Source: Erysipelotrichaceae bacterium
GTDB lineage: Bacteria > Bacillota_I > Bacilli_A > Erysipelotrichales > Erysipelotrichaceae
Length of the DNA: 58,019 bases
Direction: 5' to 3'
Assembly (NCBI GenBank): GCA_017473265.1
Contig: JAFULQ010000016.1
Coordinates: 1-58,019, forward strand
Position 1 is the first letter of the stretch. Each line of letters opens with the position of its first letter. The notes under the pieces were generated by a model. It had not been told where the DNA came from. It searched no databases and saw nothing but the letters and a program-made list of their open reading frames with translations. This document shows positions 5,201 through 37,573 of the stretch, piece by piece. The position numbers and the translations under genes were made by a program.

Positions 5201-5410
5201 ATTGCTAAAGGAAATCAAAGTGATAACTTATCAAAAACATCTAGCGTATATTCTCGATTTATTGCAGATTTAGCATTAGATGATGGAAAAAATGCCAAAG
5301 AAACATTGAATTCAAAGTCTATATGGAATTTGGAAGAATATAAAACTAAACTAGAGAAAGCACTGTCAAATAATCGTCCATTGGAAGAGTATGAATATAT
5401 TAATAGATAA
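2297..5410 (+). CDS. Large secreted protein with InlB-type (Flg_new) repeats
   Basis: 1037 aa with an N-terminal signal peptide (ILVFLIAVHVFTFLLGYY, cleavage near residue 30). The first 230 residues form an unassigned domain. Several Listeria-Bacteroides/InlB B-type repeats follow, recognisable by a V/I-x-Y/F-D/N-x-N/Q-GG start and an F-x-GW ending (GHTFVGW, GYVFIGWY, SSFVGWNT, GYEFDGWY), each closing with an A-x-W/Y/F strand. A MucBP-like stretch lies near residues 510-570 (VNHYLMDTDGNY), and a DUF5011-like domain near 870-965 (ATANDCVDGNIS-type). There is no LPXTG, terminal membrane helix or other visible cell-wall anchor, so it may be released or held by the neighbouring pilus. Strong AAGGAGGG RBS, 20 bases after the previous gene. 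Predicted adhesin. Confidence 0.75.
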   Translation: MKGKILVFLIAVHVFTFLLGYYQSVKIFAEASYPKVPEYFNESAINTRDERGYLHFNETSARLNGERVIAYSEEIGENSNKGKYFEVATIKPIFNSATNTYSITVYFYVVKWPGNKPNGGASANYGYCYPDKYLYVDVFDGDVIEYTENNPNVDGDLVASGVMNNHRIDNNSDAGNRIFLQGVYRVDSVTLTGLSAGNYVLRLWDNNEGASNAMNCGGLLGYHELILTPDFPEYAIQYDYQGGSLPSGKVNPKGYSKEDTVNIISPEKNGHTFVGWNEILQTTDWRKGRVTKSTGRAAPDSSYKNAIYSDFLRVEAGVTYSLKNIGDSKVDVHFFDMNMNVKESEYFDSSTKTTFTPSETRYVRFCFARGHSSNSPGALQIVSFKQPGVTIPAGSTGNRKYIANWTASKIKLTLNPNGGSGGTKNVWYYYGINKFYSNEACTTQISTIIRPTRTGYDYVHYYGDGTCGGNNGERYIAYDGVEFASDLCTDIYKDATLYAKWNPQNNISYKVNHYLMDTDGNYQLQATENKTGTTDSLVTPTKKDYGVGIQFNAKKSTPLPVVIKGDHSTVINYYYERIKYTITLNKSNGIDNVTGDGTYYYGKNVAINATVKRGYQWQKWSSNTNYLPGSTNQLYSFNMPANNVTLLATAEVIPYNITYIPSGGIMPSTYVKVYTVEDEVKLPTIKKEGYVFIGWYDNKGFNGNVIEKIEKGTIGDKQYFAKFVPITYIVEYHGNGNTSGSMEPSVHVYDQLKELNRSTYKKVNSSFVGWNTEADGSGVWYKDGQEVVNLTNQQGDIIRLYAQYNSSNYVVNFDSNGGLPPSFTTIEQVFGEPLKKLPTTSFNGYEFDGWYSSKTGGTKISVDTVPTENTTYYAHWKVIPPNVVANKKYYYQNTTVTVDMLIQNATANDCVDGNISNQIIVSKVVYPNGTVVHYPTVIDTTNVGDISVEYKVTNKRGASAVTVNTVTIIAKGNQSDNLSKTSSVYSRFIADLALDDGKNAKETLNSKSIWNLEEYKTKLEKALSNNRPLEEYEYINR

Positions 5411-5430
5411 GAACAAAGATGAATTTATGA

Positions 5431-5463
5431 AGAAGCATGAATGTGAATGCTTCTTTTTGTTTT
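5431..5463 (+). terminator. Terminator between the surface protein and the pilin gene
   Basis: Stem AGAAGCAT (5431-5438) with ATGCTTCT (5447-5454), then TTTTGTTTT. It separates transcription of the large surface protein from the pilus operon starting at 5520. Confidence 0.8.
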
Positions 5464-5519
5464 AGCAAATCCAAAGCAAGTCTTTGTTTTTGTATAGATA
5501 ATGAAAAGGAGGTGAAAAT

Positions 5520-5705
5520 ATGAAAGAAATTATTAGTGAATACATCTGGGTTGCAATTTGCATCTTAGCTGGAATTGCTGTAATTGTATTTGTTCCTGAT
5601 TTTGTATCAACAGTGTTTGGCTACTTAGAAACAATGGTAACAGAGTTTTCTAGTGAAGTGTCTGAATGGGTGGGACAAATCCAATTACCTACAACAGGTT
5701 CATAA
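5520..5705 (+). CDS. Small Flp/Tad-like pilin ending in LPTTG, 61 aa
   Basis: Predicted major pilin of the following Tad-like system. It begins directly with MKEIISEYIW and has a single hydrophobic helix (about residues 9-30), then a short amphipathic tail. The EY pair resembles the Glu-Tyr of Flp pilins, but there is no leader or cleavage Gly, so it looks leaderless. The last six residues are LPTTGS, an exact LPXTG sortase motif but without the usual hydrophobic tail. The N-terminus recurs in the 8876 (MKDIFTEYIW) and 9022 (MKDFISKYLW) proteins. The RBS AAAGGAGGTGAAAAT is near perfect, fitting high expression. A terminator precedes it and a hairpin follows. Assignment as a pilin rests on size, helix and context. 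Confidence 0.6.
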   Translation: MKEIISEYIWVAICILAGIAVIVFVPDFVSTVFGYLETMVTEFSSEVSEWVGQIQLPTTGS

Positions 5706-5711
5706 TTTTAA

Positions 5712-5737
5712 AGGGACTCTCTAAAAATGAGGGTCCT
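5712..5737 (+). other. mRNA hairpin after the pilin gene
   Basis: AGGGACTCTC (5712-5721) pairs with GAGGGTCCT (5729-5737) with one bulged G and a 7-nt AU loop. No T-run follows, so it is more likely a 3'-end stabiliser or partial attenuator. It could raise pilin mRNA above that of the machinery genes behind it. Confidence 0.45.
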
Positions 5738-5763
5738 AATATTATATAGGAATGGTGATATAT

Positions 5764-6174
5764 ATGAAAATCATAGTGAGAATATTTGGTCTTAGTGTCA
5801 TGTTGTTTTATGTAATACTAATTTTTTTGCAAATGATTGACTACAACATTAGACGAGATGAGTTAAATCAGTGTATTTCTATGGCAATGACAAGTACTCA
5901 AATTATTATGATGGAAAACATTGAAGATCAAATTTTAGGAACAAATAATTGTAGGAAAAAAATAACATCGAACAAAGAATATCTAGATGAATTTAAAAAC
6001 AATTTTCATGTGTTGACATCAACAAATACCGATTACAAAATCCACGTTTATGCAATTGACTATACAACTGGATTATTGTCAATTGGTGTTGAGGGTCAGT
6101 TTTTAACATTAAATGGAATTAAAAAAAAGTTTAATAGTCGAAAGACCTCTGTAATTGATGTGTTACATGAATAG
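5764..6174 (+). CDS. TadE/TadG-like pseudopilin, 136 aa
   Basis: One N-terminal hydrophobic helix (IFGLSVMLFYVILIFLQM), then a mixed region from about residue 30 that ends in beta-strand-rich sequence (YKIHVYAIDYTTGLLSIGV). This layout is that of the minor pseudopilins encoded in Tad loci. An ATG four codons earlier exists, but GGTGAT lies at the right distance from 5764. The ATPase gene follows 12 bases later. No prepilin-peptidase site is visible. The family is inferred from architecture and neighbours, not from a strong motif. Confidence 0.55.
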   Translation: MKIIVRIFGLSVMLFYVILIFLQMIDYNIRRDELNQCISMAMTSTQIIMMENIEDQILGTNNCRKKITSNKEYLDEFKNNFHVLTSTNTDYKIHVYAIDYTTGLLSIGVEGQFLTLNGIKKKFNSRKTSVIDVLHE

Positions 6175-6186
6175 AAAGGAAAGTAG

Positions 6187-7257
6187 ATGATGGACACAAT
6201 TAAAATACCAATAAATGATGAGACTTTTGGAAAATTATATCCATATATTATTGATGATTTGATAACCGATATCCGTTGGAATGGACGATTCTTAATGATA
6301 GAACATCTAACAAAGGGATATATGAAAACAGATGATGTATTATCTGAAGAATGGTTAAGTATTTTGACAAAGAATATAGCGACAAGCAATGATTTAAACT
6401 TTAATCCGACACAACCATCTTTGGATGCTTCTACTGATGATTTGCGATTTCATGTGTATCATCCGTCTATAACTGGTGAAAATAAAACGATTTTATCGAT
6501 AAGAAAAACACCAGCTGTTGCTCGAATTACTGAAGAAAGTTTCATTGAAACAAATTATGGCGATTTACTTTTGTTGAGATTGCTTAATTTACTAATTACG
6601 TCGAAATGCAGTGGATTTGTTATTGGGGAAACAGGAGCTGGGAAAACAGAACTTATTAAATTATTAGCTAAATTTATACCAGATCATGAAGTGTGCTTAA
6701 CTGTAGAAGATACGTTTGAATTGCGTTTACCTGTTATTTATCCAAACAAAAATATTAATTCTATTAAAGTGGATAAGTTCTATTCATATGAAAAAGCAAT
6801 AAGAGATGCATTGCGTTCTTTAGTAAAGTATCTGTTTTTAGCTGAAGCAAGAGGAAGAGAAATTACTCGAATTGTAGAAGGAGCATCCACTGGATGTTCG
6901 GTTTGGACAACTATTCATGCAGATAATACATGGGAAGTAATAAGTCGCGTAAAAGATATGACTGGAACAGATAAAGATGGTAATGATTATGAAAATAGAA
7001 TTTATACATTTTTTGATTGCGCTATTAAAGTTAAAAAGATGGTTAAAAAAGGTTCCATTCGAAGAATTGATCAAATATGTTTTTTTGAAAGAACAAACGA
7101 GAAGAATCAAGTAATTGTTTTTTATAAAGACGGCAAATATACAGGGAATAAAATACCCAAAAGTATTTTAGATAGATTTAATGAATGTGAACAGTTTGAA
7201 TCGTTTAAGAAATTGTGGAAAGCAACATTTGGAGGTGACTTAAGTGCAGAAAAATAG
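6187..7257 (+). CDS. CpaF/TadA-type secretion ATPase
   Basis: Cytoplasmic hexameric ATPase of the VirB11/PilT/CpaF superfamily, expected to power assembly of the pilin. Walker A GETGAGKT is at residues 147-154, the Walker B region KYLFLAEARG at about 214-223, and the His box TTIHADN at 241-247. The N-terminal domain (1-110) is shorter than in typical CpaF, and there is no receiver-like domain. The Walker B segment is diverged: the usual R-P-D before the hydrophobic run is replaced by LVK, and GEVRG by AEARG. Its end overlaps the GTG start of the platform gene by 14 bases. Family confident; exact pilus subtype less so. Confidence 0.85.
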   Translation: MMDTIKIPINDETFGKLYPYIIDDLITDIRWNGRFLMIEHLTKGYMKTDDVLSEEWLSILTKNIATSNDLNFNPTQPSLDASTDDLRFHVYHPSITGENKTILSIRKTPAVARITEESFIETNYGDLLLLRLLNLLITSKCSGFVIGETGAGKTELIKLLAKFIPDHEVCLTVEDTFELRLPVIYPNKNINSIKVDKFYSYEKAIRDALRSLVKYLFLAEARGREITRIVEGASTGCSVWTTIHADNTWEVISRVKDMTGTDKDGNDYENRIYTFFDCAIKVKKMVKKGSIRRIDQICFFERTNEKNQVIVFYKDGKYTGNKIPKSILDRFNECEQFESFKKLWKATFGGDLSAEK

Positions 7258-8752
7258 AAACTTTTGGAGTAATTTTAATATTAAATTACTATTACAAGAC
7301 ATAGAATCTTATGGATACGAATATTCTTTAAAGAAATTTTTGTTACATACGGTAGGTTGTTTTGTTTTTATTGGATGTATTGCATATATCTGTAAATTAC
7401 AAATGTTTTTCATATTAATACTTGGTGTATTATCACTATTTGTTTTTCCATTTATTGTTCGTTCGCAGTTTGTACAGTTATATGAAATAAAACGATTTCA
7501 AATGGTTGTTACTTATTTGGAAAATATTATTCCAATTTTTAAAAGTAAACCGATAATTACACATGCATGGCAACAGGTTGCGGAATTGTTAGATGGAGAT
7601 ATGAAAAAAGTTATTCATAAAGCAACAGATTATGTGTTATTCAATACAAGTGATGTTCATCCATATAAAACTGCATTTTCTATGATAGAAGAAGCCTTTC
7701 CAAATAGTCGTATACATGCAGTTCATCGTATGATGTACACAGTTCAAGAACAAAACTCTGTGGATTTTGCTCATGCTTCTGACAATTTATTCTTTGATAT
7801 AGATGCTTGGATACATCGAAGCTATTCTTTTCAAAAAGAGTTAAAGCATCGTCGAAATTTATTGATATTTATTTGTTTACTAACCTTAGCAATTAGTTGT
7901 TGGTTTATTGTTGTATATTCAGCTAGTGATGTATTAGCAGATTTTGTTAATTTGTTGCCGTATCAAATTTCCACATCTATTTTCATATTTGTAATGTTTA
8001 TCTTTATTACGTTTGTTTTTATTAAAATGAATGGTAGATGGATGGTTGATGATAAAACAAAACGAAAAGAGCATGAGACGGAAGAAATTTTCAAGAAATA
8101 TAAAATGACAAATCAAGCAAAAGCGACAAAGTTAGATATTTTATTATCTGTAATTTTGATGAGTATAGCGATTTATAACTATTTTATAAATAATATTGCA
8201 TTTGCTACATTATTTATTATTTCTAGTTTCGTACTTCTTGTTCAAAAAAGGAGGAAATACTTTTCATATAAAAAGAGAATTAAAAAATATATAGAGATTG
8301 AATTTCCTATTTTCTTAAGAGAAGTATCATTAAATTTATATAATATGACAGTGGTTAATGCTATTAGAAATAGTCGCGATACAGTATCTCCAATATTGGA
8401 TTATTACATTCTTGAATTTCTGGAAAATGTTATGAAAGATCCAAATACAATTTATCCATATGATAGTTTTTTAAAGGAGTACGATTTACCAGATATTCGT
8501 TCAGCGATGAAAACTTTATATAATATGAATGAAATTGATTATGAATATCGTCAAAAACAAATAAGTTCATTAATTGAACGTAATCAAATTATGCTTGCTC
8601 GTTCTGAAATCCTTAGAAACGAGGATGCTCTTTTAGGTGTTGAGGTTTTGAACTATATTCCAGTTTTATTGTTTGTGATTCAATTGTTAGTTGTTATGGT
8701 TTTATCATTAACGTGGTTAATGCAAACGGTAATACAATCTATTCAGTTTTAA
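7244..8752 (+). CDS. Fused TadB/TadC-type inner-membrane platform protein
   Basis: 502 aa with hydrophobic pairs near residues 30-70, 200-260, 290-330 and 465-500, flanking two cytoplasmic helical regions. This matches two T2SSF-type domains in one chain, whereas classical Tad loci use separate TadB and TadC. It would sit in the membrane above the ATPase as the pilus assembly platform. The GTG start at 7244 is chosen because GGAGGTGA lies five bases upstream, inside the end of the ATPase gene, so translation is coupled. It could alternatively be one diverged domain plus an unrelated membrane region. Confidence 0.7.
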   Translation: MQKNRNFWSNFNIKLLLQDIESYGYEYSLKKFLLHTVGCFVFIGCIAYICKLQMFFILILGVLSLFVFPFIVRSQFVQLYEIKRFQMVVTYLENIIPIFKSKPIITHAWQQVAELLDGDMKKVIHKATDYVLFNTSDVHPYKTAFSMIEEAFPNSRIHAVHRMMYTVQEQNSVDFAHASDNLFFDIDAWIHRSYSFQKELKHRRNLLIFICLLTLAISCWFIVVYSASDVLADFVNLLPYQISTSIFIFVMFIFITFVFIKMNGRWMVDDKTKRKEHETEEIFKKYKMTNQAKATKLDILLSVILMSIAIYNYFINNIAFATLFIISSFVLLVQKRRKYFSYKKRIKKYIEIEFPIFLREVSLNLYNMTVVNAIRNSRDTVSPILDYYILEFLENVMKDPNTIYPYDSFLKEYDLPDIRSAMKTLYNMNEIDYEYRQKQISSLIERNQIMLARSEILRNEDALLGVEVLNYIPVLLFVIQLLVVMVLSLTWLMQTVIQSIQF

Positions 8753-9845: not shown

Positions 9846-10562
9846 ATGCTAATTATGAAAATAAAAGGAATTAAGGAAAGTGAAATACGTATTACAGTAA
9901 ATCATAAAGAAGTATGGCAAAACAAAAAATTAATTGATTTTAATTTGTGGAACCAAGAATATGATTTACGAATGAAGGCAGAAGATCATATTGTGTTAAG
10001 TGAATTGGAAGTGGATGTTTTAAATAAACAGGTAACAAAAGAAGAAATGGTTATGGATATTGATTTAGTAACTAGTAACATTCATGTTGTGCCGAATGGA
10101 TGTGCATATGGAGAAGTGTTGCTAGATTTCTATAATTCATATATTAAGGATAAAGAATGGAACCCATTGCCTACTTTAGAAATCCGTGGAGGAAGTTTTG
10201 CTTGGAAACCTTGGAAGAATAAAGTCTGGATGCGTGTTGTTGAAGGTGATGTAATTTATCTAGCGCATTTTGAAAGTGTTGCTTTTAGAATGTCTGATGA
10301 AAAGATGATTGCGAAATTGGCAGATATGCATTTTTATAAAGGATTTGGTTGGGATCAAGTGCATACAAAAGATGAAGAAGGTATTCATTTTTATCTACCA
10401 ACGATTGATGAAATTGGTAATGTAGAATGTTTGGATGATTCATATATTCCAAATATTGATGTATCGATGTTATTTGATGAAACAACGACTACTATGGAAA
10501 AAGAGATGTTGGCTCGTTGTATAGTATTAACGTTTGAAGAATATGTAAAAAGGAATCGCTAG
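9846..10562 (+). CDS. Hypothetical protein, about 238 aa
   Basis: Unrecognised cytoplasmic-looking protein without signal or membrane segment. It is rich in aromatic and acidic residues, with a [17 protein letters not shown] stretch near the middle and an acidic, Thr-rich end. Start choice is uncertain. ATG 9846 is three bases behind AAGG and ATG 9855 is 12 bases away; a GTG at 9780 lies upstream of a good promoter. It has its own promoter, so it need not belong to the pilus operon. Its stop codon overlaps that of metK on the other strand within a shared terminator hairpin. Confidence 0.6.
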
Positions 10563-10579
10563 TTAGCTAGTGATTCCTT
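10550..10579. terminator. Bidirectional terminator containing both stop codons
   Basis: AAGGAATCG-CTAG (10550-10562) pairs with CTAG-TGATTCCTT (10567-10579) around a TTAG loop, giving a 13-bp stem with one G-U pair. T-runs follow on both strands. The TAG stops of the 9846 gene (10560-10562) and of metK (10559-10561, minus) both lie inside the stem. Confidence 0.85.
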
Positions 10580-11704
10580 AATTTTTTCTAATTTATCTAA
10601 TTGTTCAAATGAGATGTGCAAGTCTTCTCTTCCCATATGACCATAAGCGGCTAATTGCTTATACATAGGAGTTTTTAGATGTAATTCATTGATGATATTA
10701 GCTACACGTAAATCGAAGTGCGCATTTACAATTTCATATAACTTACTCATTTCTACTTTATTTGTACCATATGTATCAATATGAATAGATACTGGTGTTG
10801 GAATACCGATAGCATAAGCTACTTGTACTAAAGCTTTATCACAAAGATTAGCAGCTACTAAATGTTTTGCTACATAACGAGTATAATAAGCACCACTTCT
10901 ATCAACTTTAGATGGGTCCTTACCACTAAATGCACCACCCCCATGAGGTGCATATCCACCATATGTATCAACGATAATTTTTCTACCTGTTAATCCAGCG
11001 TCACCAATAGGACCACCAATTACAAATCTTCCAGTTGGATTGATATATATTTTTGTGTTTTCATCCATTAAGTGTGCAGGGATGACTGCATCAATTACGT
11101 GTTTTCTGATGTCTGCTTTTAAAGCGTCTAGGTCAATAGAAGCTAAGTGTTGATTAGAAACAACGATTGTATCAACGCGTTTGATTTCTCCATCTTCAAA
11201 TTCTACGCTTACTTGTGCTTTCCCATCTGGTCCTAAGTATGTTAAAGTGTCTTTTACTTCATCTAACTTAGCACATAGCTTAGAAGCTAATTCAAATGAT
11301 AGTGGCATTAAGTTGGCTGTTTCATTACAAGCGTATCCAAACATCATTCCTTGGTCGCCTGCACCAATTTCTTCTTCGCTTAAAGAAACACCTTGGTTAA
11401 TGTCTGCGGATTGGGTGCTTAGATGAACTAATACTTCGATTTCGTCATATTTGAATCCCCATTCTGGACGAGTATAACCAATTTCTTTAATTGTTTCTCT
11501 AGCGATGGCTTCGTAATCTACAATTGCGGAAGTTGAAACTTCTCCTGTGATTAATAATAAGTTCTTACTTGTGACTGTTTCGCATGCAACGTGTGCATGA
11601 GGGTCTTGTTTTAAAATAGCATCCAAAATAGCATCTGATACTTGATCGGCTACTTTGTCTGGATGTCCTTTTGTTACTGATTCTGATGTAAAAATTGTTT
11701 TCAT
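10559..11704 (-). CDS. metK: S-adenosylmethionine synthetase
   Basis: Makes S-adenosylmethionine from methionine and ATP in the cytoplasm. The 381-aa length and order match MetK. The start [12 protein letters not shown] carries the ATP/Mg-binding His-Pro-Asp, FGYACNET lies mid-protein, and [18 protein letters not shown] is the conserved substrate and phosphate-binding region. RBS AAAGGAG lies before the ATG. The gene stands alone under an S-box (SAM-I) riboswitch with its own terminator, so its product feeds back on its own expression. The 3' end overlaps the converging 9846 gene by four bases. Confidence 0.98.
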
Positions 11705-11759: not shown

Positions 11760-11778
11760 AAAGAATGACTATTCTTTC

Positions 11779-11871
11779 CTCATCTTCCAGATTGCTCTGT
11801 AGGATTTAGCACCTTGTTATAACAGGTTGCCGGGTTTCATAGGGCCTATCCCTCCACCACTCTTGATAAGG
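11779..11871 (-). promoter_or_regulatory. SAM-I (S-box) riboswitch aptamer for metK
   Basis: Read on the minus strand it contains the S-box consensus in order: CTTATCAAGAG, GGTGGAGGGA, GGCCCTATGAAACCCGGCAAC and GGTGCTAAATCC. It closes with GATGAGG pairing back to CCTTATC (P1, one G-U). With the terminator before metK this is a transcription-off switch responding to SAM. Confidence 0.96.
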
Positions 11872-11885
11872 TTTTTACTCGAAAT

Positions 11886-28128: not shown

Positions 28129-29001
28129 ATGAAAAATTTGCTTCAACTTAGTACTCTATCAAAAGAAGAAATAATGGATATTTTAAACGACGCTATCAAG
28201 ATGTCGCAAGGTGAAGGATTGGATAGTTGCAAAGACAAAATCGTTGCGAACTTATTCTTTGAACCATCTACTAGAACGCAATATAGTTTCAATGTAGCTG
28301 AAGAAAAGTTAGGTTGTAAGGTGATTAGTTTTAATGCGGCAGCTTCTAGTCTTCAAAAAGGTGAATCTTTTTATGATACAGTGAAGACGTTTGAAAGTTT
28401 TGGTATTGATGCAGTAGTTATTCGTTCTAGACAAGATGAATACTACAAAGAATTAGTTGGGCGAATCTCTATTCCTATTTTAAATGCAGGTGATGGTGTG
28501 AAAGATCATCCAACTCAATCTTTATTAGATTTATTAACTATTTATCAAGAATATGGAAAATTCGAAGGATTGAAAATTGCGATTGTTGGGGATATTAAAC
28601 ATTCTCGCGTAGCACACACAAATATTGAAGTTATGGAACGTTTGGGAATGACTTGTTATATTAGTGGTCCTGAAGAATATCGTGATGATGAATATACATA
28701 CATTCCATTTGATCAAGCAGTTGAAGAAATGGATATCCTTATGTTGTTACGTGTACAACATGAAAGACATGAAAAAGAAATGTCATTAAGTAAAGAAGAA
28801 TATCATGCTCGTTATGGTTTAACTATGGAGCGTGTACATAAAATGAAAGAGCATGCAATTATCATGCATCCAGCACCATTTAATCGTATGGTAGAAATTG
28901 CGGATGATGTAGTTGAATGCGATAAGAGTCGTATTTTCAAACAAGTAAATAATGGTGTTTATGTAAGAATGGCCGTAATTAGACGCGCTTTTGGAGGTTA
29001 A
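28129..29001 (+). CDS. pyrB: Aspartate carbamoyltransferase catalytic subunit
   Basis: Condenses carbamoyl phosphate with aspartate, the first committed step of UMP synthesis. Key motifs: FEPSTRTQYSF (carbamoyl-phosphate loop), HPTQSLLDLLTI and MHPAPFNR. 290 aa is a normal catalytic-chain length; there is no regulatory pyrI partner, as in other Firmicutes. First gene of an eight-gene operon; RBS AAGGAGGAG. Confidence 0.97.
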   Translation: MKNLLQLSTLSKEEIMDILNDAIKMSQGEGLDSCKDKIVANLFFEPSTRTQYSFNVAEEKLGCKVISFNAAASSLQKGESFYDTVKTFESFGIDAVVIRSRQDEYYKELVGRISIPILNAGDGVKDHPTQSLLDLLTIYQEYGKFEGLKIAIVGDIKHSRVAHTNIEVMERLGMTCYISGPEEYRDDEYTYIPFDQAVEEMDILMLLRVQHERHEKEMSLSKEEYHARYGLTMERVHKMKEHAIIMHPAPFNRMVEIADDVVECDKSRIFKQVNNGVYVRMAVIRRAFGG

Positions 29002-29002
29002 T

Positions 29003-30289
29003 ATGATTCGATTATTCAAAGATGGGAAATTGTTTTATAAAAATCGCTTTCAAGATTTGGATTTCTTGATTGATGATGAAGGTAGAATTGTAATCGCTGA
29101 TGCGATTGAATTAGATGATAATGATGTAGATGAAGTGGTTGATTGTAGAGGCATTCATATAATGCCTGGTTTTATCGACCCACATGTTCACTTACGTCAA
29201 CCTGGCTTTGAATATAAAGAGACAATAAAGACAGGAACGACTGCCGCTGCACATGGAGGTGTGACGACAGTTTTTGCCATGCCAAATTTGAACCCTGTAC
29301 CAGATTCTTTAGAAAATTTAGCCATTCAACAAGATGCAATTGATAAAGATGCAGTAGTAAAGGTATATCCAATTTGTGCAATTACAAAAGGGCAAAAGAG
29401 TCGTTCAGAAGTAGGAGATATTGATATATTATCTCAAGCTTGTTTCTTATATTCAAATGATGGTGTAGGAGTACAAGATGAAGATACAATGCGCCAAGCA
29501 ATGAAACTAGTAAAGAAAAATGATGGTGTCATCATTGCGCATTGTGAAGATGAAGATGAATTATTACCTGGTGGTTGTGTTCACATGGGTAAAAAGGATA
29601 AAGAATATGGTTTAGTTGGTATCAATAGTGCTAGTGAATACAAACAAGTACAACGTGATTTAAAATTAGTAGAAGAAACAGGATGCCAATATCATATTTG
29701 CCATATGTCTACTAAGGAAAGTGTTGAAGCTTTACGTGAAGCTAAGAAAAAAGGTTTACCGGTTAGTGGAGAAGTAACAGTTCATCATTTATTATTATGT
29801 GAAGACGATATTACAGAAAATCATGGACGATTCAAAATGAATCCTCCATTACGTAGCAAAGAAGATCAAGAAGCGTTAATTCGTGGTATTCAAGATGGAA
29901 CCATTGAAATGATTGCGACAGACCAAGCACCACACAGTGAGGAAGAAAAAAATTGTACAATGGATAAAGCGAAAATGGGGATTGTTTCCATTGAACGTTC
30001 TTTCGCACTTGTATATACCTATTTAGTTAGAAAGGGAATCATTACATTAGAACAAGCCGTACGCTTAATGAGTTGTAATGCGGCAGAAATTTTCAGAATT
30101 CCTGGCGGAGAGATTGTGAATTTTGAAAAATGTGATTTAGCTTTCTTCCATTTAAATACAAATGAAAAGATTAATGCATCTAAATTTGTGTCAAAAGGAA
30201 AGAGTACACCATTTGATAAAATGTATGTGCAAGCTAAATGTGTAATGACAATTGTGGATGGAAAAATCGTATTTAGGAGGGATATTTAA
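29003..30289 (+). CDS. pyrC: Dihydroorotase
   Basis: Zinc enzyme that cyclises carbamoyl aspartate to dihydroorotate. 428 aa, class I type. The metal-binding DPHVHLRQPGFE is near residue 55 and ATDQAPHSEEEK near residue 305; the usual ATDHAPH has its first His replaced by Gln, a position that is not a metal ligand. The start overlaps nothing: ATG 29003 is one base behind the pyrB stop with GGAGGTTAAT inside the end of pyrB. Confidence 0.96.
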   Translation: MIRLFKDGKLFYKNRFQDLDFLIDDEGRIVIADAIELDDNDVDEVVDCRGIHIMPGFIDPHVHLRQPGFEYKETIKTGTTAAAHGGVTTVFAMPNLNPVPDSLENLAIQQDAIDKDAVVKVYPICAITKGQKSRSEVGDIDILSQACFLYSNDGVGVQDEDTMRQAMKLVKKNDGVIIAHCEDEDELLPGGCVHMGKKDKEYGLVGINSASEYKQVQRDLKLVEETGCQYHICHMSTKESVEALREAKKKGLPVSGEVTVHHLLLCEDDITENHGRFKMNPPLRSKEDQEALIRGIQDGTIEMIATDQAPHSEEEKNCTMDKAKMGIVSIERSFALVYTYLVRKGIITLEQAVRLMSCNAAEIFRIPGGEIVNFEKCDLAFFHLNTNEKINASKFVSKGKSTPFDKMYVQAKCVMTIVDGKIVFRRDI

Positions 30290-31353
30290 TGAAAAGAAAA
30301 TTAGTTCTTCAAAATGGTATGGAATTTATCGGCCATGGATTTGGAAGTTTCAAAGAAACAATTGCGGAATTGGTATTTAATACTTCTGTAGTTGGATATC
30401 AAGAAATTCTAAGTGATCCAACCTATTATGGCCAAATGTTGTGTATGACATATACCTTAATTGGTAACTATGGAATGATTGATGAAGATTATGATTCAAA
30501 AGTTATTGGCCCAAAAGCATTAGTTGTACGTGAATACAACGATAAACCATCTAACTTCCGCTATACCAAGACATTAAATGAAGTATTAGAAGAAAATGAT
30601 GTAGTAGGAATTACACATGTAGATACTCGTCAATTAACAAGAGTGCTTCGTGAACAAGGTAGTATGCTAGCAATTATTTGTGACTTAGATGTAACAACAG
30701 AAGAAGCATTAGCAAAAATAAATGATTACATTGCGATTGAACATCCAGTATCACAAGTAAGTTGTCAAAAAATATGGTATTCTCGTTGTCCAAATCCTAA
30801 GTACAATGTTGTGACTGTGGATTGTGGGGCAGCTTATAATATGATTCGCGAATGGAATCATTTAGGTTGTAATGTAACAATCGTGCCATATAACACAAGT
30901 TATGAAAAAATCATGGGTATGAATCCAGATGGTGTTGTGATTTCAATGGGACCTGGTAGTCCAGAAAACTGTAAAGAAGTGATTGAATTGATTCAAAAGA
31001 TTCAAGGTCAAAAACCAATTTTAGGTTTTGGATTAGGTTGTCAATTAATTGCTTTGGCTAATGGATTATCTGTTGAAAAATTAGTACATGGACATCGTGG
31101 ATCAAGCTATCCAGTAAGAAATACAAAGACAAACAAGGTAGAAATTACTTCACAAAATCATAGTTATGTAATTTCTAGTGGTAATGATAATGTACAAGTC
31201 ACTTATGAAAATGTAATGGATCATACAATTGAAGGAATTGAAGTTGTTGATCAAAAATGTTTTGGTGTGCAATTCTATCCAACCAATACATTAGGAGTAT
31301 CACATGAGTGTTATCAACAATTTATTGAATATATGCAAAAAGGAGGGAACTAG
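30289..31353 (+). CDS. carA: Carbamoyl-phosphate synthase small chain with dead glutaminase site
   Basis: 354 aa, normal length and both domains present. Class I amidotransferases have a Cys nucleophile in GICLGHQ and a His and Glu in QYHPE. Here those segments read GFGLGCQ (residues 246-252, Cys replaced by Gly248 and the neighbouring His by Cys251) and QFYPTN (His replaced by Tyr330, Glu by Thr332). The GGNHPV loop is also altered to GSSYPV. The reading frame is intact and in an intact operon, one base overlapping pyrC. Glutamine hydrolysis should be lost, leaving a structural subunit for ammonia-dependent CarB. This parallels ammonia-dependent CPS I, where the Cys is replaced by Ser. Confidence 0.95.
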
Positions 31354-31355
31354 TC

Positions 31356-34300
31356 ATGCCAAGAAGAGAAGATATTAAACGTGTATTAGTGATTGGTTCT
31401 GGTCCAATTGTTATTGGACAAGCTGCTGAGTTTGACTATGCTGGAACTCAAGCTTGTTTAGCATTAAAAGAAGAAGGATATGAAGTTATCTTAATTAACT
31501 CTAACCCTGCAACAATTATGACAGATACAAATATTGCGGATAAAGTATATATGGAACCATTAACATTAGAATATGTAAGCCGTATTATCCGTAAGGAAAG
31601 ACCGCATGCGATTTTACCGACATTAGGTGGACAAACAGGTCTTAACTTAGCTATGCAATTAGCTAAAAAAGGTGTATTAGAAGAATGTCAATGTGAAATC
31701 TTAGGAACAAGTTTCCGTTCTATTCAAGAAGCTGAAGATAGAGAAGATTTCAAAAAGTTATGTGAACGTATCAATCAACCATGTTTGGAATCATTGATTG
31801 CTCATACAGTAGAAGAAATTGTGGCTTGTGCCAATGAAATTGGTTATCCAGTTGTTCTTCGTCCAGCTTTCACATTAGGTGGAACTGGTGGAGGTTTTGC
31901 TTATAATGATGATGATGCAAGAAGCATTGGTAAAAATGCGTTAAAACTATCTCCAGTAAGTGAAGTATTAGTTGAAAAATCAATTAAAGGATACAAAGAA
32001 ATTGAATTTGAAGTTATGCGTGACAAAAACGATACAGCAATCGTTATTTGTAGCATGGAAAATATTGACCCTGTAGGTGTTCATACAGGAGATAGTATGG
32101 TAGTAGCTCCTGCACAAACACTATCTCAAAAGGAATACAATTTATTAGCAAACTCTGCTTTAGCTATTATTCGTGAATTAAAGATTGAAGGTGGATGTAA
32201 CGTACAATTTGCGTTAGACCCATTCTCATTCCAATACTTTGTAATTGAAGTAAATCCACGTGTATCTCGTAGTTCTGCATTAGCATCTAAAGCTACAGGA
32301 TATCCAATTGCTAGAGTAAGTTCTAAGATTGCGGTTGGTTTAACATTAGATGAAATCCAATTAGGAAAAGTATGTGCAGCATTTGCGCCTACAGTAGACT
32401 ACGTGGTAACAAAAGTAGCTCGTTTCCCATTTGATAAATTTACCAAAGCAGATCGTACATTAAGTACGCAAATGAAAGCGACTGGAGAAGTTATGAGTAT
32501 TGGTCGTACAATGGAAGAGTCTTTATTAAAAGCGATTCGTAGTTTGGAAATTGGTGTAGATCATTTATACTTAGAAAAATTTGATAGTTATACAACAGAA
32601 GAATTATTGAAGAGTATTGAAACAGCAACAGATGATCGTATCTATGCGATTGCGGAATTATTTAGACGTAAAGTAGATATGATGTTAATTAACAATGCGA
32701 CTAAGATTGATGCATTCTTCTTAGATAAGATTCATCATATTATTTCGGTTGAAGAAAAAGTAAAAGCAAATCCTAATGAAAAGTATTTACGTAAAGCTAA
32801 GAAGTTAGGTTTCTCTGATCGCTATTTAGCTAAGATTTATGGAATGACAGAACTAGAAATGTACCAATATCGTACAGGTTTAGGAATTCGTCCAGTGTAT
32901 AAGATGATTGATACTTGTGCTGGTGAATTTGATGGTTATGTTCCTTATTTATATAGTACCTATGAAACTGAAAATGAATCTGTGGTTACAGATAAAGAAT
33001 CAATTGTGGTATTAGGTTCAGGACCAATTCGTATTGGACAAGGAGTAGAATTCGATTATTCTACTGTACATGCGATTTGGGCAATTCAACAAGCTGGTTA
33101 TGAAGCGATTGTTGTAAATAATAACCCAGAAACTGTTTCTACAGACTATTCAATTAGTGATAAGTTATATTTTGAACCATTGTGTATTGAAGATGTAATG
33201 CATGTTATTGATTTAGAAAAACCAAAAGGTGTCATTGTGTCTTTAGGTGGTCAAACAGCAATTAACTTAACAGAACGTTTAACAAAATTAAATGTACCTA
33301 TTATTGGTACTGATCACTATGCGATTGAAAGAGCAGAAAACCGTGATTCTTTTGAAAAAGTAGTTAAAGAAACAGGTATTCCTCAACCAATTGGTCAAGC
33401 AGTAACAGATATTGAAACAGGTATCGAAGTTGCGAATAAGATTGGATATCCAGTATTGGTTCGTCCATCTTATGTATTAGGTGGTCGTGCAATGCAAATT
33501 GTACATCATGATGAAGAATTAAGAGAATACTTAACAACAGCGGTTAAGATTGATAAAGATCAACCAGTATTAGTTGATAAATATATCAGTGGTACAGAAG
33601 TAGAAGTGGATGCTATTTGTGATGGTGTGGATGTATATATTCCAGGTATCATGCAATTGGTTGAAGCTACTGGAGTTCACTCTGGGGATTCTATGAGTGT
33701 ATATCCTCCTTATTCATTAAGTCAAAAAGTAAAAGATACAATTGCGGATTATACTGTGCGTTTGGGCTTAGCCATCGGTATTAAAGGATTATTTAATATT
33801 CAATTTATTGTAGATTCTAATGATGAAGTTTCTGTAATTGAAGTAAATCCTCGTTCAAGTCGTAGTGTTCCATTCTTATCTAAATCTAGTGGAATTCCTA
33901 TGGCAAATATTGCGACAAAAGTTATGTTGGGACAATCTTTAAAAGAACAAGGTTATGGCACAGAGGTAATGCCAGAGAAGAAACGTTTCTATGTTAAATC
34001 GCCTACTTTCTCATTCTCTAAATTGCATGGATTAGATACATATTTGTCTCCAGAAATGAAGTCTACAGGGGAAGCGATTGGTTATGATGATACATTGAAT
34101 CGTGCGTTATATAAGTCATTACAAGCTAGTAATTTACGTGTAGTGAACTATGGTACAGTGTTTGTGACTGTTGCGGATGCGGATAAAGAAAGAGCGTTAC
34201 CATTAGTTAAACGTTTCTATGATTTAGGATTTAATATTGAAGCAACTGCTGGTACAGCTAAATCATTAAAAGAATATGGTATTCGTACGCGTGTAAAACA

Positions 34301-34538
34301 AAAGATTTCTGAAAATTCAGAAGAAATCTTAGAATCTATTCGTAAAGGTCATATTACCTATATTATTAATACAGTAACTCCTTCTGATAGTAAGATGTCA
34401 CAAAGTAAAGATGGCTATTTAATTCGTAGAACTGCGGTAGAAAATAATGTCACAATCTTTACTTCATTAGATACAGTTAATGTATTGTTGAATATTTTAG
34501 AAGAAATCACAATGCAAGTTTCTACAATTGATCAATAG
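31356..34538 (+). CDS. carB: Carbamoyl-phosphate synthase large chain
   Basis: 1060 aa. Two homologous ATP-grasp halves are evident: [20 protein letters not shown] at the start and [19 protein letters not shown] near residue 550. The first makes carboxyphosphate/carbamate; the second phosphorylates carbamate. The ends of both halves show the metal-binding EVNPR motif ([26 protein letters not shown]). A C-terminal MGS-like allosteric domain follows. The enzyme looks complete, so with the altered CarA it probably uses free ammonia. Two bases separate carA and carB. Confidence 0.97.
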
Positions 34539-34547
34539 GAGGTACTT

Positions 34548-35297
34548 ATGAAATCGATTCAAAATTATGAAGTATTAAGTAATGAGTATCTAGCATTAGA
34601 TATTTATAAGATGGTATTAAAGGGTGATAGTTCATGGATTACTAATCCTGGTCAATTTGTGAATATTACCATTGAGAATGCTTATTTAAAGCGTCCAATT
34701 AGTATTTGTGATTGGGATGAAAATAGTATCACTATTATTTATAAGGTAGTAGGTTTTGGTACAAAGCAATTATCACAAAAGAAAGTTGGAGATGTTATTG
34801 AGTGTTTAGTTGGTTTAGGTAATGGTTATGATATTGAAAATATCAATGAACCTGTACTAGTCGTAGGTGGAGGAGTGGGGGTTCCTCCTATCTATGGACT
34901 GGCTAAATCGTTAGTTAAAAAGGGTGTAGATGTAACTGCGATTTTGGCTTTCAATGGTCAAGAAAATGCCTTCTACTTAAAAGAGTTTGAAGATTTAGGT
35001 GTAAAACTACATGTATGTACAATGGATGGAAGTTTGGGAACTAAGGGGTTTGCCTCTGATGTAATGAAGAATGAAAATCTATGTGATATGTTATACATGG
35101 TATGTGGTAATGTACCAATGATGCAAAGTGTATTTAAAGCAAGTAATCATAATGGTTTATTATCATTTGAAGAACGTATGGGTTGTGGTTTTGGCGCTTG
35201 TATGGGATGTAGTTGTAAAACGTTAACTGGTTATAAACGTATTTGTAAAGAAGGGCCAGTTATGAAGAGTGAGGAAATTCTATGGACGAAAGACTAA
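34548..35297 (+). CDS. pyrK: Dihydroorotate dehydrogenase electron-transfer subunit
   Basis: 249 aa FAD and 2Fe-2S protein that passes electrons from type 1B PyrD to NAD+. Features: RPISICDWDENSITIIYKVV (FAD-binding), VVGGGVGVPPIYGLAKSL (NAD-binding) and the cluster ligands in CGFGACMGCSC plus a later Cys in KRICKEGP. Overlaps pyrD by 16 bases. Confidence 0.96.
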   Translation: MKSIQNYEVLSNEYLALDIYKMVLKGDSSWITNPGQFVNITIENAYLKRPISICDWDENSITIIYKVVGFGTKQLSQKKVGDVIECLVGLGNGYDIENINEPVLVVGGGVGVPPIYGLAKSLVKKGVDVTAILAFNGQENAFYLKEFEDLGVKLHVCTMDGSLGTKGFASDVMKNENLCDMLYMVCGNVPMMQSVFKASNHNGLLSFEERMGCGFGACMGCSCKTLTGYKRICKEGPVMKSEEILWTKD

Positions 35298-36202
35298 AAG
35301 TAAAATTAGGAAATTGGGAATTGGATAATCCAATTATTCCAGCTAGTGGAACTTATGGGTTTGGTTATGAATTTTGTGAGTTCTATGACATTAATATTTT
35401 AGGTAGTATTGCGACTAAAGGGACAACATTAGAACCTCGTTTTGGGAATCCTACACCACGTATTGCGGAATGTACTAGTGGTATGATCAACTCTGTAGGA
35501 TTGCAAAATCCTGGTTTGGATGAAGTTATCAATGTAGAGTTTAAGAAATTGGCTGAAGTATTCCATAAGAAAGTGGTTGCGAATGTTAGTGGATTCTCTA
35601 TTGAAGAATATGTAGAATGTGCAAAACGTATGGATGCATGTGACATTGTTGGTATTATTGAAGTAAATATTTCTTGTCCAAATGTAAAGCATGGTGGTAT
35701 GAGCTTTGGCACAGATCCTAAAGCGGCTTATGAAGTGACTAAAGCGGTTAAGGATGTGGTAAAGAATAAACCAGTATATATTAAATTGAGTCCGAATGTA
35801 ACGGATATTGTGGCTATTGCGAAGGCTTGTGAAGAAGCTGGCGCAGATGGTATTAGTATGATTAATACACTATTGGGTTCTCGTTTTGATTTGAAAACAG
35901 GAAAACCAATTATTGCGAATGTAATGGGTGGATTTAGTGGACCTGCTATTTTGCCAGTTGCATTGCGTATGGTATACCAAGTGTATAAAGCAGTGAATAT
36001 TCCAATCATAGGGATTGGTGGAATATCTAAAGCGGAAGATGTAATTGAAATGATGTATGCGGGAGCGACTGCAGTTCAAATTGGAGCTGAAAATTGTCGT
36101 AATCCGTATGTATGCAAGGAAATCATTGAACGCTTACCTCAACTCATGGATGAGTTGAAAATCAATACATTACAAGAAATTATCGGGAGGGCACACGTAT
36201 GA
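35282..36202 (+). CDS. pyrD: Dihydroorotate dehydrogenase, type 1B catalytic subunit
   Basis: 306 aa FMN barrel that oxidises dihydroorotate to orotate in the cytosol. PASGTYGFGYEFCEF at the start, the active-site Cys region VNISCPNVKHGG, and GIGGISKAEDVIEMMYAGA as the FMN-phosphate site. Its partner pyrK precedes it. Next gene overlaps its stop by four bases. Confidence 0.97.
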   Translation: MDERLKVKLGNWELDNPIIPASGTYGFGYEFCEFYDINILGSIATKGTTLEPRFGNPTPRIAECTSGMINSVGLQNPGLDEVINVEFKKLAEVFHKKVVANVSGFSIEEYVECAKRMDACDIVGIIEVNISCPNVKHGGMSFGTDPKAAYEVTKAVKDVVKNKPVYIKLSPNVTDIVAIAKACEEAGADGISMINTLLGSRFDLKTGKPIIANVMGGFSGPAILPVALRMVYQVYKAVNIPIIGIGGISKAEDVIEMMYAGATAVQIGAENCRNPYVCKEIIERLPQLMDELKINTLQEIIGRAHV

Positions 36203-36894
36203 GAGATGTAATTATTGCATGTGATTTTTCAACAAAGGAACAAACATTAGCATTTTTAGACCAATTTACAACAGTTAAACCTTTTGTAAAGATTGGTATG
36301 GAATTGTATTATGCAGAAGGACCAGATATGGTTCGTGAAATTAAGGCTAGAGGACACAAGATTTTCTTAGACTTAAAATTACACGATATTCCAAATACTG
36401 TATATAAAGCTATGAAAAATGTAGCAAAATTAGGCGTTGATATGACAAATGTTCATGCGGCTGGAACTATTGAAATGATGAAAGCTGCACAAAAGGCAAT
36501 TGATGAAGTTAATCCTGAAACTAAATTAATTGCAGTTACTCAATTAACAAGTACTAGTGAACAAATGATGCAAGAAGAATTATGGATTAACCATCCTATT
36601 AATGATACTGTACAACACTATGCAAAGAATGCGCAAAAGGCAGGTTTAGCAGGAGTTGTTTGTAGTCCATTAGAAGCGCATTTAGTACAAGAAGTATGTG
36701 GGGAAGACTTTATGACAGTTACTCCTGGTATTCGCTTTGATGATGCGTCTAAAGGGGATCAAAAGCGTGTTACAACACCAGCTATGGCTAAAGAGATTGG
36801 TTCTCACTTTATCGTTGTAGGACGTCCGATTACTGCAGCAGAAGATCCAGTAGCTGCATACCAACGTTGTGTGAAAGAATTTGTAGGTGAATAA
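36199..36894 (+). CDS. pyrF: Orotidine 5'-phosphate decarboxylase
   Basis: 231 aa TIM-barrel enzyme making UMP. The catalytic motif DLKLHDIPNTV is at about residue 57; PGIRFDDASKGDQKR and IVVGRPIT form the phosphate site. RBS GGGAGGGCACACGT. Confidence 0.97.
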   Translation: MRDVIIACDFSTKEQTLAFLDQFTTVKPFVKIGMELYYAEGPDMVREIKARGHKIFLDLKLHDIPNTVYKAMKNVAKLGVDMTNVHAAGTIEMMKAAQKAIDEVNPETKLIAVTQLTSTSEQMMQEELWINHPINDTVQHYAKNAQKAGLAGVVCSPLEAHLVQEVCGEDFMTVTPGIRFDDASKGDQKRVTTPAMAKEIGSHFIVVGRPITAAEDPVAAYQRCVKEFVGE

Positions 36895-36895
36895 T

Positions 36896-37573
36896 ATGGA
36901 ACAATACAAGCAAGAGTTTATTGAATTTATGGTGGATAGCCAAGTTTTAAAATTTGGTGATTTTACATTAAAGAGTGGTCGTAAGTCTCCTTTCTTTATG
37001 AATGCTGGAGCTTATGTAACTGGCACACAATTACGCAAATTAGGTGAATACTATGCGAAAGCGATTCATGATAACTATGGATTAGATTTCGATGTTATTT
37101 TTGGACCTGCATATAAAGGTATTCCACTATGTGTAGCTACAACTATGGCTATTAGTGAATTATATGGTAAAGATGTTCGTTATTGTTCAAACCGTAAAGA
37201 AGTAAAAGACCATGGTGATACAGGGATTCTTTTAGGTTCTAAATTAAAAGATGGGGACCGTGTTATCATTATTGAAGATGTAACAACTTCTGGTAAATCA
37301 ATTGAAGAAACATATCCTATCTTAAAAGCACAAGCTGATGTAGAAGTTAAGGGATTAATTGTTTCATTAAATCGTAATGAAAAAGGTAAACAAGATGATA
37401 AAACTGCATTGGATGAAATCAAAGAAGTATATGGTTTCAATACCGCAGCTATCGTTAGTATGCCTGAAGTAGTAGAACATTTATATAACAAAGAATATAA
37501 AGGCCAAGTAGTAATCAATGATGAAATCAAAGCTCGTCTTGATGCTTACTACGAACAATATGGAGTGAAATAA
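36896..37573 (+). CDS. pyrE: Orotate phosphoribosyltransferase
   Basis: 225 aa enzyme joining orotate and PRPP. FTLKSGRKSPFFMNAG and the PRPP motif VIIIEDVTTSGKS (near residue 125) are diagnostic. I start at ATG 36896, one base after the pyrF stop and behind TAGGTGAATAAT, rather than at the GTG three codons upstream. Last gene of the operon; terminator follows. Confidence 0.97.
   Translation: MEQYKQEFIEFMVDSQVLKFGDFTLKSGRKSPFFMNAGAYVTGTQLRKLGEYYAKAIHDNYGLDFDVIFGPAYKGIPLCVATTMAISELYGKDVRYCSNRKEVKDHGDTGILLGSKLKDGDRVIIIEDVTTSGKSIEETYPILKAQADVEVKGLIVSLNRNEKGKQDDKTALDEIKEVYGFNTAAIVSMPEVVEHLYNKEYKGQVVINDEIKARLDAYYEQYGVK

Follow-up and report, generated by a model that had tools for sequence, protein, structure and literature searches.

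The pyrimidine locus and its carbamoyl phosphate synthetase

The stretch of DNA analysed here (the window) comprises 58,019 nucleotides of contig JAFULQ010000016.1 from an Erysipelotrichaceae bacterium (GenBank assembly GCA_017473265.1). Its subject is a pair of adjacent open reading frames (ORFs) on the plus strand, carA (30289..31353) and carB (31356..34538), which at the gene level correspond to the heterodimer of carbamoyl phosphate synthetase (CPS) II. The small subunit, CarA, lacks the glutaminase triad, and a number of its relatives lack it too, often together with changes in a short patch of CarB. The comparisons reported below suggest that the window encodes an ammonia-dependent CPS for pyrimidine synthesis, with a remodelled ammonia entrance that would have evolved repeatedly, a reading to which we give a probability of about 0.77.

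CarA is an ORF of 354 residues that contains the CPSase_sm_chain and glutamine amidotransferase (GATase) domains (PF00988 and PF00117) and scores above the cut-offs of the small-subunit hidden Markov models (HMMs) of NCBIfam (355.6 versus 221 and 354.6 versus 307.35 bits; NF009475 and TIGR01368). In the alignment to E. coli CarA, Gly, Tyr and Thr stand in place of the Cys-His-Glu triad: the nucleophile Cys269 corresponds to Gly248 (GGA, 31030..31032, plus strand as for all features of the locus), and His353-Pro-Glu355 to Tyr330 (TAT)-Pro-Thr332 (ACC) (31276..31284). Also, His272 has become Cys251 (TGT, 31039..31041), the GGNHPV motif reads GSSYPV, the position of Gly293 is occupied by Ser at CarA 272, and the Gly359-Pro360 loop is represented by Gly336-Val337-Ser338 (31294..31302), where the placement of residue 361 is ambiguous. 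The alignment confirms Gly248, Cys251, Tyr330, Thr332 and the altered GGNHPV motif, all of which an earlier reading of the sequence without database searches (the sequence-only reading) had pointed out. A separate metagenome-assembled genome (MAG) of the Erysipelotrichaceae from water buffalo rectum (L031) contains a CarA that is 98% identical and has the same substituted residues, which makes a sequencing error unlikely. Given that Cys269 and His353 are essential to glutamine hydrolysis (PMC6245113), a CarA in which the nucleophile and its partners are missing would no longer hydrolyse glutamine. An AlphaFold model of the window CarA, built on three eligible sequences, reached a mean predicted local distance difference test score (pLDDT) of 40.7 and was not used.

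CarB is complete, as the sequence-only reading had it. Its score is 1494 bits versus a cut-off of 599 (NF003671), and both ATP-grasp halves with their catalytic residues are present (TIGR01369). The 11 positions checked, which we take to be catalytic in E. coli, are all as in that enzyme, and among the 28 partners of triad-less CarAs described below each is conserved in all 28, or in 27 where one row has a gap. At the tunnel gate, C232, A251 and A314 are likewise as in E. coli in the window and are kept in 28 of 28 triad-less partners. The residues from Asn262 to Ala265 (32139..32150; Gln262 and Arg265 in E. coli) form a patch that coevolves with CarA.

A protein search of the own genome detected no second carA; the assembly (1.80 Mb, 29 contigs, 0.97% contaminated) is 95.11% complete, so that some 5% may be missing. 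The sequence-only reading had proposed this search and had regarded a second intact carA pairing with this CarB as speaking against its claim. The search brought up no such gene in the own genome; intact second copies do exist in four relatives, but each of them has its own adjacent carB.

Recurrence of triad loss among relatives

When CarA was aligned with its relatives, as had also been proposed, the view of it as a single oddity had to be amended. CarA matches (E up to 1e-20) were found in 111 of 272 genomes of the window's family, and 123 CarAs were aligned, eight of them from a neighbouring family of the order. Without two duplicates (L032, which equals G245, and L167), the 121 loci comprise 87 with Cys-His-Glu, three with Cys-His-Asp (CHD) and 31 without Cys and/or His, the triad-less CarAs being present in 31 of 110 family genomes. 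The nucleophile position of the 31 is Gly in 25, Ser in four and Asp in one, with Cys retained in one, and none has Gln at the position of E. coli Gly293. All three triad positions are changed in the window CarA, as first described, and in only 16 of the 31 triad-less CarAs.

It could be argued that a triad-less CarA hydrolyses glutamine by another nucleophile, such as the neighbouring Cys251, which lies three residues from the nucleophile position and has a counterpart in seven of the 31. However, the other 24 have no Cys at that position, His and Glu are lost too in the window CarA, and the presence of Cys there in five of the 87 intact CarAs marks it as a tolerated variant, and this explanation appears extremely unlikely.

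The number of losses was counted on quick trees, in which a long-branch join is possible at the group with long CarB. The CarB tree has 110 rows, with 28 of the 31 triad-less ones, and was rebuilt without the coevolving columns 258-270; on it, strict loss requires at least 14 changes. In the strict sets the CHD type (G213, G214 and G276, and outside the family G353 and G336) was treated as not lost because Cys, His, Q262 and R265 are kept; when the CHD rows are counted too, there are 14 changes on the best CarB tree, at least 10 of which are forced by well-supported branches. The tree of the CarA N-domain (120 rows) gives 13 changes. Forcing the 28 triad-less rows into one clade is rejected by the approximately unbiased test (p-AU 0.000439), and with it a single origin of the triad loss. 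Rows dropped were the partial CarA matches L162, L164 and L165, 11 rows without a long CarB from the CarB tree, and L161 from the N-domain tree.

The loss is also found outside the family. In 392 genomes of the phylum, a search with a pattern that detects only Cys-to-Gly CarAs with an otherwise standard motif returned two matches, the triad-less CarA of genome G427 and one protein read as an Obg-like GTPase. In the family of G427 (15 genomes) five CarAs were found, and all five are triad-less. Across the class, carA was detected by protein search in 64 of 395 genomes. The out-of-sample set consists of 30 loci outside the window's family, its neighbouring family and the family of G427, plus four from the last; these 34 loci are divided into 25 intact, two CHD and seven triad-less, or eight triad-less with L194. 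As far as sequences tell, the same loss has happened repeatedly in the bacterial class of the window.

Several other forms of carA and carB were seen in these searches. In L223 (G353), L224 (G336), L142, L147 and L148, which form two separate groups, CarA has changed only from Glu to Asp, and one of the two groups apparently reads UGA as sense; these Cys-His-Asp CarAs are perhaps still working glutaminases. The most eroded CarAs, L163 (G197) and L166 (G194), have 334 and 331 residues, lack parts of the GATase domain in the alignment, and stand beside a long CarB; it is possible that they represent the end state of the process of triad loss. Short N-terminal carA-like fragments with one internal stop each (G026:C1:260141-260308 and G119:C3:3-473) occur in genomes that also have a full carA, and are possibly remnants of a second copy. 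CarB has about 1340 residues (one is cut by a contig end) in 19 rows of one CarB clade, among them L090 (4977-9005) and L109, and in the two rows tested its extra C-terminal part is a diaminopimelate epimerase (PF01678, E 3.5e-53 and 3.1e-53); the CarA triad is intact in all 19 rows. In L062 (G216, 5087-8382), carB lies in two overlapping frames beside an intact carA, which is either an assembly error or a real frameshift.

Coevolution between CarA and CarB

A total of 1060 CarB columns were scanned for residues that are present in triad-less clades and never seen in 79 intact partners, with 300 pseudo-sets of intact clades for comparison. Column 262 ranked first (9 of 14 clades), column 265 second (6 of 14) and column 258 joint third (5 of 14) with 532 and 745. 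Over all columns, the maximum reached 8 in one pseudo-set, 7 in another and 6 in ten; column 262 stands above this null, and the value of 6 for column 265 is in its upper tail. That positions 258, 261, 262 and 265 all fall in a stretch of eight residues speaks for a common cause.

The same pattern is seen when rows are counted against 82 others, which include the three CHD rows. Gln/His262 is altered in 17 of 28 triad-less partners and Arg265 in 12 of 28, versus 0 of 82 in both cases, and one or the other is altered in 22 of 28 versus 0 of 82. In CarA, Pro360 is changed or deleted in 23 of 28 triad-less rows versus 1 of 82, with Pro being found there in 86 of 87 intact relatives. Sign tests on independent pairs of the tree gave a median p of 0.0078 for position 262, 0.0039 for 262/265 either and 0.0039 for Pro360; counting the three CHD rows of the family as lost weakens it to 0.0156 for 262/265 and 0.0078 for Pro360. 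In other families of the class, where the rows are not all independent and two of the 25 intact ones have no CarB coverage of 262/265, position 262 or 265 is changed in seven of eight triad-less versus one of 23 intact rows. Among these eight, 262 is altered in seven and 265 has become Lys in five; the 23 intact rows have Arg265 in 23 and Gln or His262 in 22.

Selection, operon context and genomes with two synthetases

The ratio of nonsynonymous to synonymous substitution rates (dN/dS) of the GATase domain in triad-less pairs with dS <0.6 is 0.046 (window versus G003), 0.080, 0.055, 0.051 and 0.027, while intact pairs of similar age have about 0.01-0.07. The ratio is 0.006-0.041 for CarB in four recent triad-less pairs and 0-0.08 for the CarA N-domain in three. 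These values bear on the possibility that these hosts can do without the pyrimidine pathway and that carA is becoming a pseudogene. It is true that, measured against CarB, triad-less rows show faster divergence of the GATase domain (a median ratio of 2.5 for 28 rows versus 1.35 for 79 intact ones), which is expected after the loss of catalytic constraint. Also, CTP synthase (PF06418) was undetected in 11 of 22 triad-less-only versus 0 of 14 intact-only genomes, a hint of reduced pyrimidine metabolism from too few independent pairs. Nonetheless, GATase dN/dS values of 0.027-0.080 are not those of decay, no internal stop was seen among the full-length matches listed, the pyr operon is retained around triad-less copies, the coevolution is patterned, and both types of CPS are kept in four genomes. 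Decay is, for these reasons, quite improbable.

Purifying selection on the GATase domain would also be expected if the triad-less CarA had turned into a regulator or sensor, of glutamine for instance, and the use of ammonia were a side effect. In line with this, the position of E. coli Asn311 has Asn in 29 of 31 triad-less CarAs, the other two being gaps. On the other hand, all 87 intact CarAs have Gln at the position of Gln273 and Ser at that of Ser47, compared with only 10 and 13, respectively, of the 31 triad-less ones. Given that the substitutions are lineage-specific, they do not suggest one new ligand, and we consider a sensor improbable.

In the window, carA and carB belong to an operon in the order pyrB-pyrC-carA-carB-pyrK-pyrD-pyrF-pyrE. 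It starts with pyrB (28129..29001; NF002032, 357.6 bits versus a cut-off of 263), the aspartate carbamoyltransferase that consumes carbamoyl phosphate, followed by the dihydroorotase gene pyrC (listed as 28991..30289; TIGR00857, 374.4 versus 279.05). PyrC, searched from the ATG at 29003, is above a subfamily cut-off and below its best equivalog cut-off among the NCBIfam HMMs. Downstream of carB lie pyrK, for the electron transfer subunit of dihydroorotate dehydrogenase (34548..35297; E 1.9e-68, under strict equivalog cut-offs), pyrD for dihydroorotate dehydrogenase (35282..36202), pyrF for orotidine-5'-phosphate decarboxylase (36199..36894) and pyrE for orotate phosphoribosyltransferase (36887..37573), the last three also from ORFs and NCBIfam HMMs. 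With the six other genes named in this way and the ORF of carA open, the description of a full-length, in-frame carA in an intact pyr operon is upheld. Elsewhere in the window, an S-adenosylmethionine (SAM) riboswitch (RF00162, 84.4 bits, 11777-11872, minus strand) is found upstream of a minus-strand ORF (10559-11704).

The order pyrC-carA-carB is found in 29 of 33 loci without Cys-His-Glu versus 41 of 84 intact loci, and carB-pyrK-pyrD in 29 of the 33, which include the three CHD loci and three from genomes with two pairs. The exceptions are mostly loci truncated by the end of their contig, and in G026 pyrB and carA were seen without a pyrC between them. As a rule, then, a triad-less copy is the CPS of the pyrimidine operon, and many intact copies were not seen in that order.

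Four genomes (G023, G240, G009 and, from another family, G754) have both a triad-less and an intact carAB, and the copy in the pyr operon is always the triad-less one. In the first three, pyrB-pyrC-carA-carB-pyrK-pyrD-pyrF with the triad-less carA is followed downstream, on the same strand, by an intact carA-carB; in G023 a masked stretch lies between the two pairs. In G754, the triad-less carA is in pyrC-carA-carB-pyrK and the intact carAB on another contig.

The sequence-only reading had predicted an ammonia-dependent CPS with a retained non-catalytic small chain. The negative search for a second carA, purifying selection, intact CarB sites, the operon and the coevolution with CarB all support such an enzyme at the level of sequence. 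In this CPS, CarA may be kept under the observed purifying selection as a structural, tunnel-lining subunit, and free NH3 would enter at the CarA-CarB interface. There, the former tunnel wall would be opened or remodelled at the CarA Pro360 loop and at CarB Gln262/Arg265, a putative geometry for positions that do coevolve. NH3 would then pass the conserved gate and react at the unchanged carboxyphosphate site of CarB. The repeated transition probably occurred where ammonia was plentiful.

Nitrogen metabolism of the hosts

Gln-synt_C and the ammonium transporter Amt were searched in 80 genomes (28 of 28 triad-less-only, 45 of 76 intact-only, three of three with both pairs, three of three CHD, and G001, a genome in which no carA was found). 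CTP synthase and the class I and class II amidotransferases were searched in 40 (22 of 28, 14 of 76, three of three and 0, respectively, and G001). The absence of glutamine synthetase (GS) as the cause of the loss is rejected, Gln-synt_C being present in 75 of the 80 genomes, including G003, whose CarA is 98% identical to that of the window; the own genome itself gave no Gln-synt_C match. GS type I, as read from high-scoring matches, is found in six of 28 triad-less-only versus 24 of 45 intact-only genomes, a difference that is not significant in the paired test. PF06418 was not detected in 11 triad-less-only genomes, of which the own genome (G000) is one; the window nevertheless has the complete pathway to uridine monophosphate.

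Nor do the searches support the idea that glutamine has been given up generally. A class II amidotransferase domain is present in 34 of 40 genomes, among them the own genome with an ORF of 609 residues, and class I matches of the size of GMP and CTP synthases occur in many triad-less genomes; no class I domain of the GMP-synthase type was found in the own genome. The same searches bear on whether a separate glutaminase or amidotransferase subunit, docking on the window CarB, provides the ammonia in trans. Further class I amidotransferase-domain proteins are present in most of the 40 genomes, but PF00117 in the own genome matches only CarA and one short amidotransferase-like protein, read as peptidase-like. 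CarA is kept beside CarB and would fill the docking site, whose interface residues are changed rather than kept, and a supply in trans is very improbable.

For two of the MAGs the source is named as water buffalo and roe deer rectum, and rectal sites are rich in ammonia. Amt was found in 0 of 28 triad-less-only versus 17 of 45 intact-only genomes (three of three CHD, one of three with both pairs); its absence would be in keeping with habitats rich in ammonia, but the difference does not reach significance once relatedness is taken into account (median p 0.125). This is one of several points that weigh against an ammonia-dependent CPS with a remodelled entrance. In 12 of 300 pseudo-sets the maximum equalled or exceeded the score of 6 for column 265, and the pair test for 265 alone is not significant (median p 0.0625). 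Q262 and R265 are both kept in six of 28 triad-less pairs, namely the Ser types G244, G245 and G264, the Asp type G117 and the Gly types G140 and G107. One intact CarA from outside the family (G650) has a partner CarB with Asn262; the triad-less row from outside the family that keeps both positions, G637, is of the Ser type, like three of the six family exceptions. The Ser and Asp types without these changes may be younger, or may have taken another route, as in CPS1. Human CPS1 uses ammonia and keeps the equivalents of Gln262 and Arg265, while most triad-less bacterial enzymes change interface residues. The CarA N-domain is less constrained in two recent pairs (dN/dS 0.14). Finally, the ammonia concentration that E. 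coli CPS requires is very high and probably unphysiological (PMC6245113), so that either a better affinity or an ammonia-rich niche would be required here.

Significance and comparison with known synthetases

According to a review, glutamine is the preferred donor and the one of physiological relevance, and it is the rule for bacterial CarAB. If the reading of an ammonia-dependent CPS is true, this rule does not hold for a group of gut bacteria, and such proteins are misnamed by automatic annotation, given that the window CarA passes TIGR01368 ('glutamine-hydrolyzing'). More than 10 natural replicates would then be available for how a channelled enzyme switches to external ammonia, in terms of the order of residues, the reopening of the tunnel and the affinity for ammonia, and species with two pairs would allow a direct test of the reasons for keeping both kinds of CPS. 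No description of a triad-less bacterial CarA was recognised in the titles and abstract starts of the open-licence literature, outside which most subscription papers lie. Ammonia-dependent CPS as such is already known from CPS I.

The window enzyme shares with E. coli CPS II its subunits, domains and CarB active sites, and differs from it in the missing triad and in the altered CarA Pro360 loop and CarB 262/265. A variant of the E. coli enzyme, alphaP360A/alphaH361A/betaR265A, is said to have been made by Kim and Raushel in 2004, with a perforation of the tunnel wall, formed by CarB R265 and CarA P360, that reportedly left it able to use only ammonia. It would involve the same CarA loop and the same CarB residue, Ala265 being natural in the window; the mutant is engineered and reportedly has its triad intact, whereas the triad of the window is lost. 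We lean slightly towards a fuller account in which these are ammonia-specific heterodimeric CPSs, with CarA disarmed and the tunnel wall opened at CarA Pro360/CarB Gln262-Arg265, as a natural repeat of this engineered perforation. They would have more than 10 origins in one class, and some species would keep both types as a pair for different nitrogen sources, with the two pairs in a single gene cluster in three of these species. E. coli variants with a blocked or perforated tunnel are still active on external ammonia (PMC4655335).

The parallel with CPS I drawn by the sequence-only reading stands as regards the replaced Cys and the retained inactive domain, but it is loose because CPS1 keeps Gln/Arg at 262/265 and blocks the tunnel at the Gly293 position. 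Activation by N-acetylglutamate is essential to CPS I. Human CPS1 is one fused polypeptide, while the window has two separate ORFs; as in the window, its nucleophile Cys is replaced, by Ser in place of the Gly found here, and the inactive glutaminase domain is kept (PMC4655335). The old tunnel is blocked in CPS1 by Gln318 at the Gly293 position (PMC4655335), a Gln that is missing in the window. A convergent shift towards ammonia has been proposed from sequence for CPS III of Alcolapia fish, in which, unlike the window, the triad is kept and a glutamine-binding residue is missing (PMC7657897). Among gut prokaryotes, the archaeon Methanobrevibacter smithii has a 41-kDa CPS with synthetase domains only (PMC6022934), which is one short protein acting as a dimer, whereas the window has the genes of a CarAB heterodimer.

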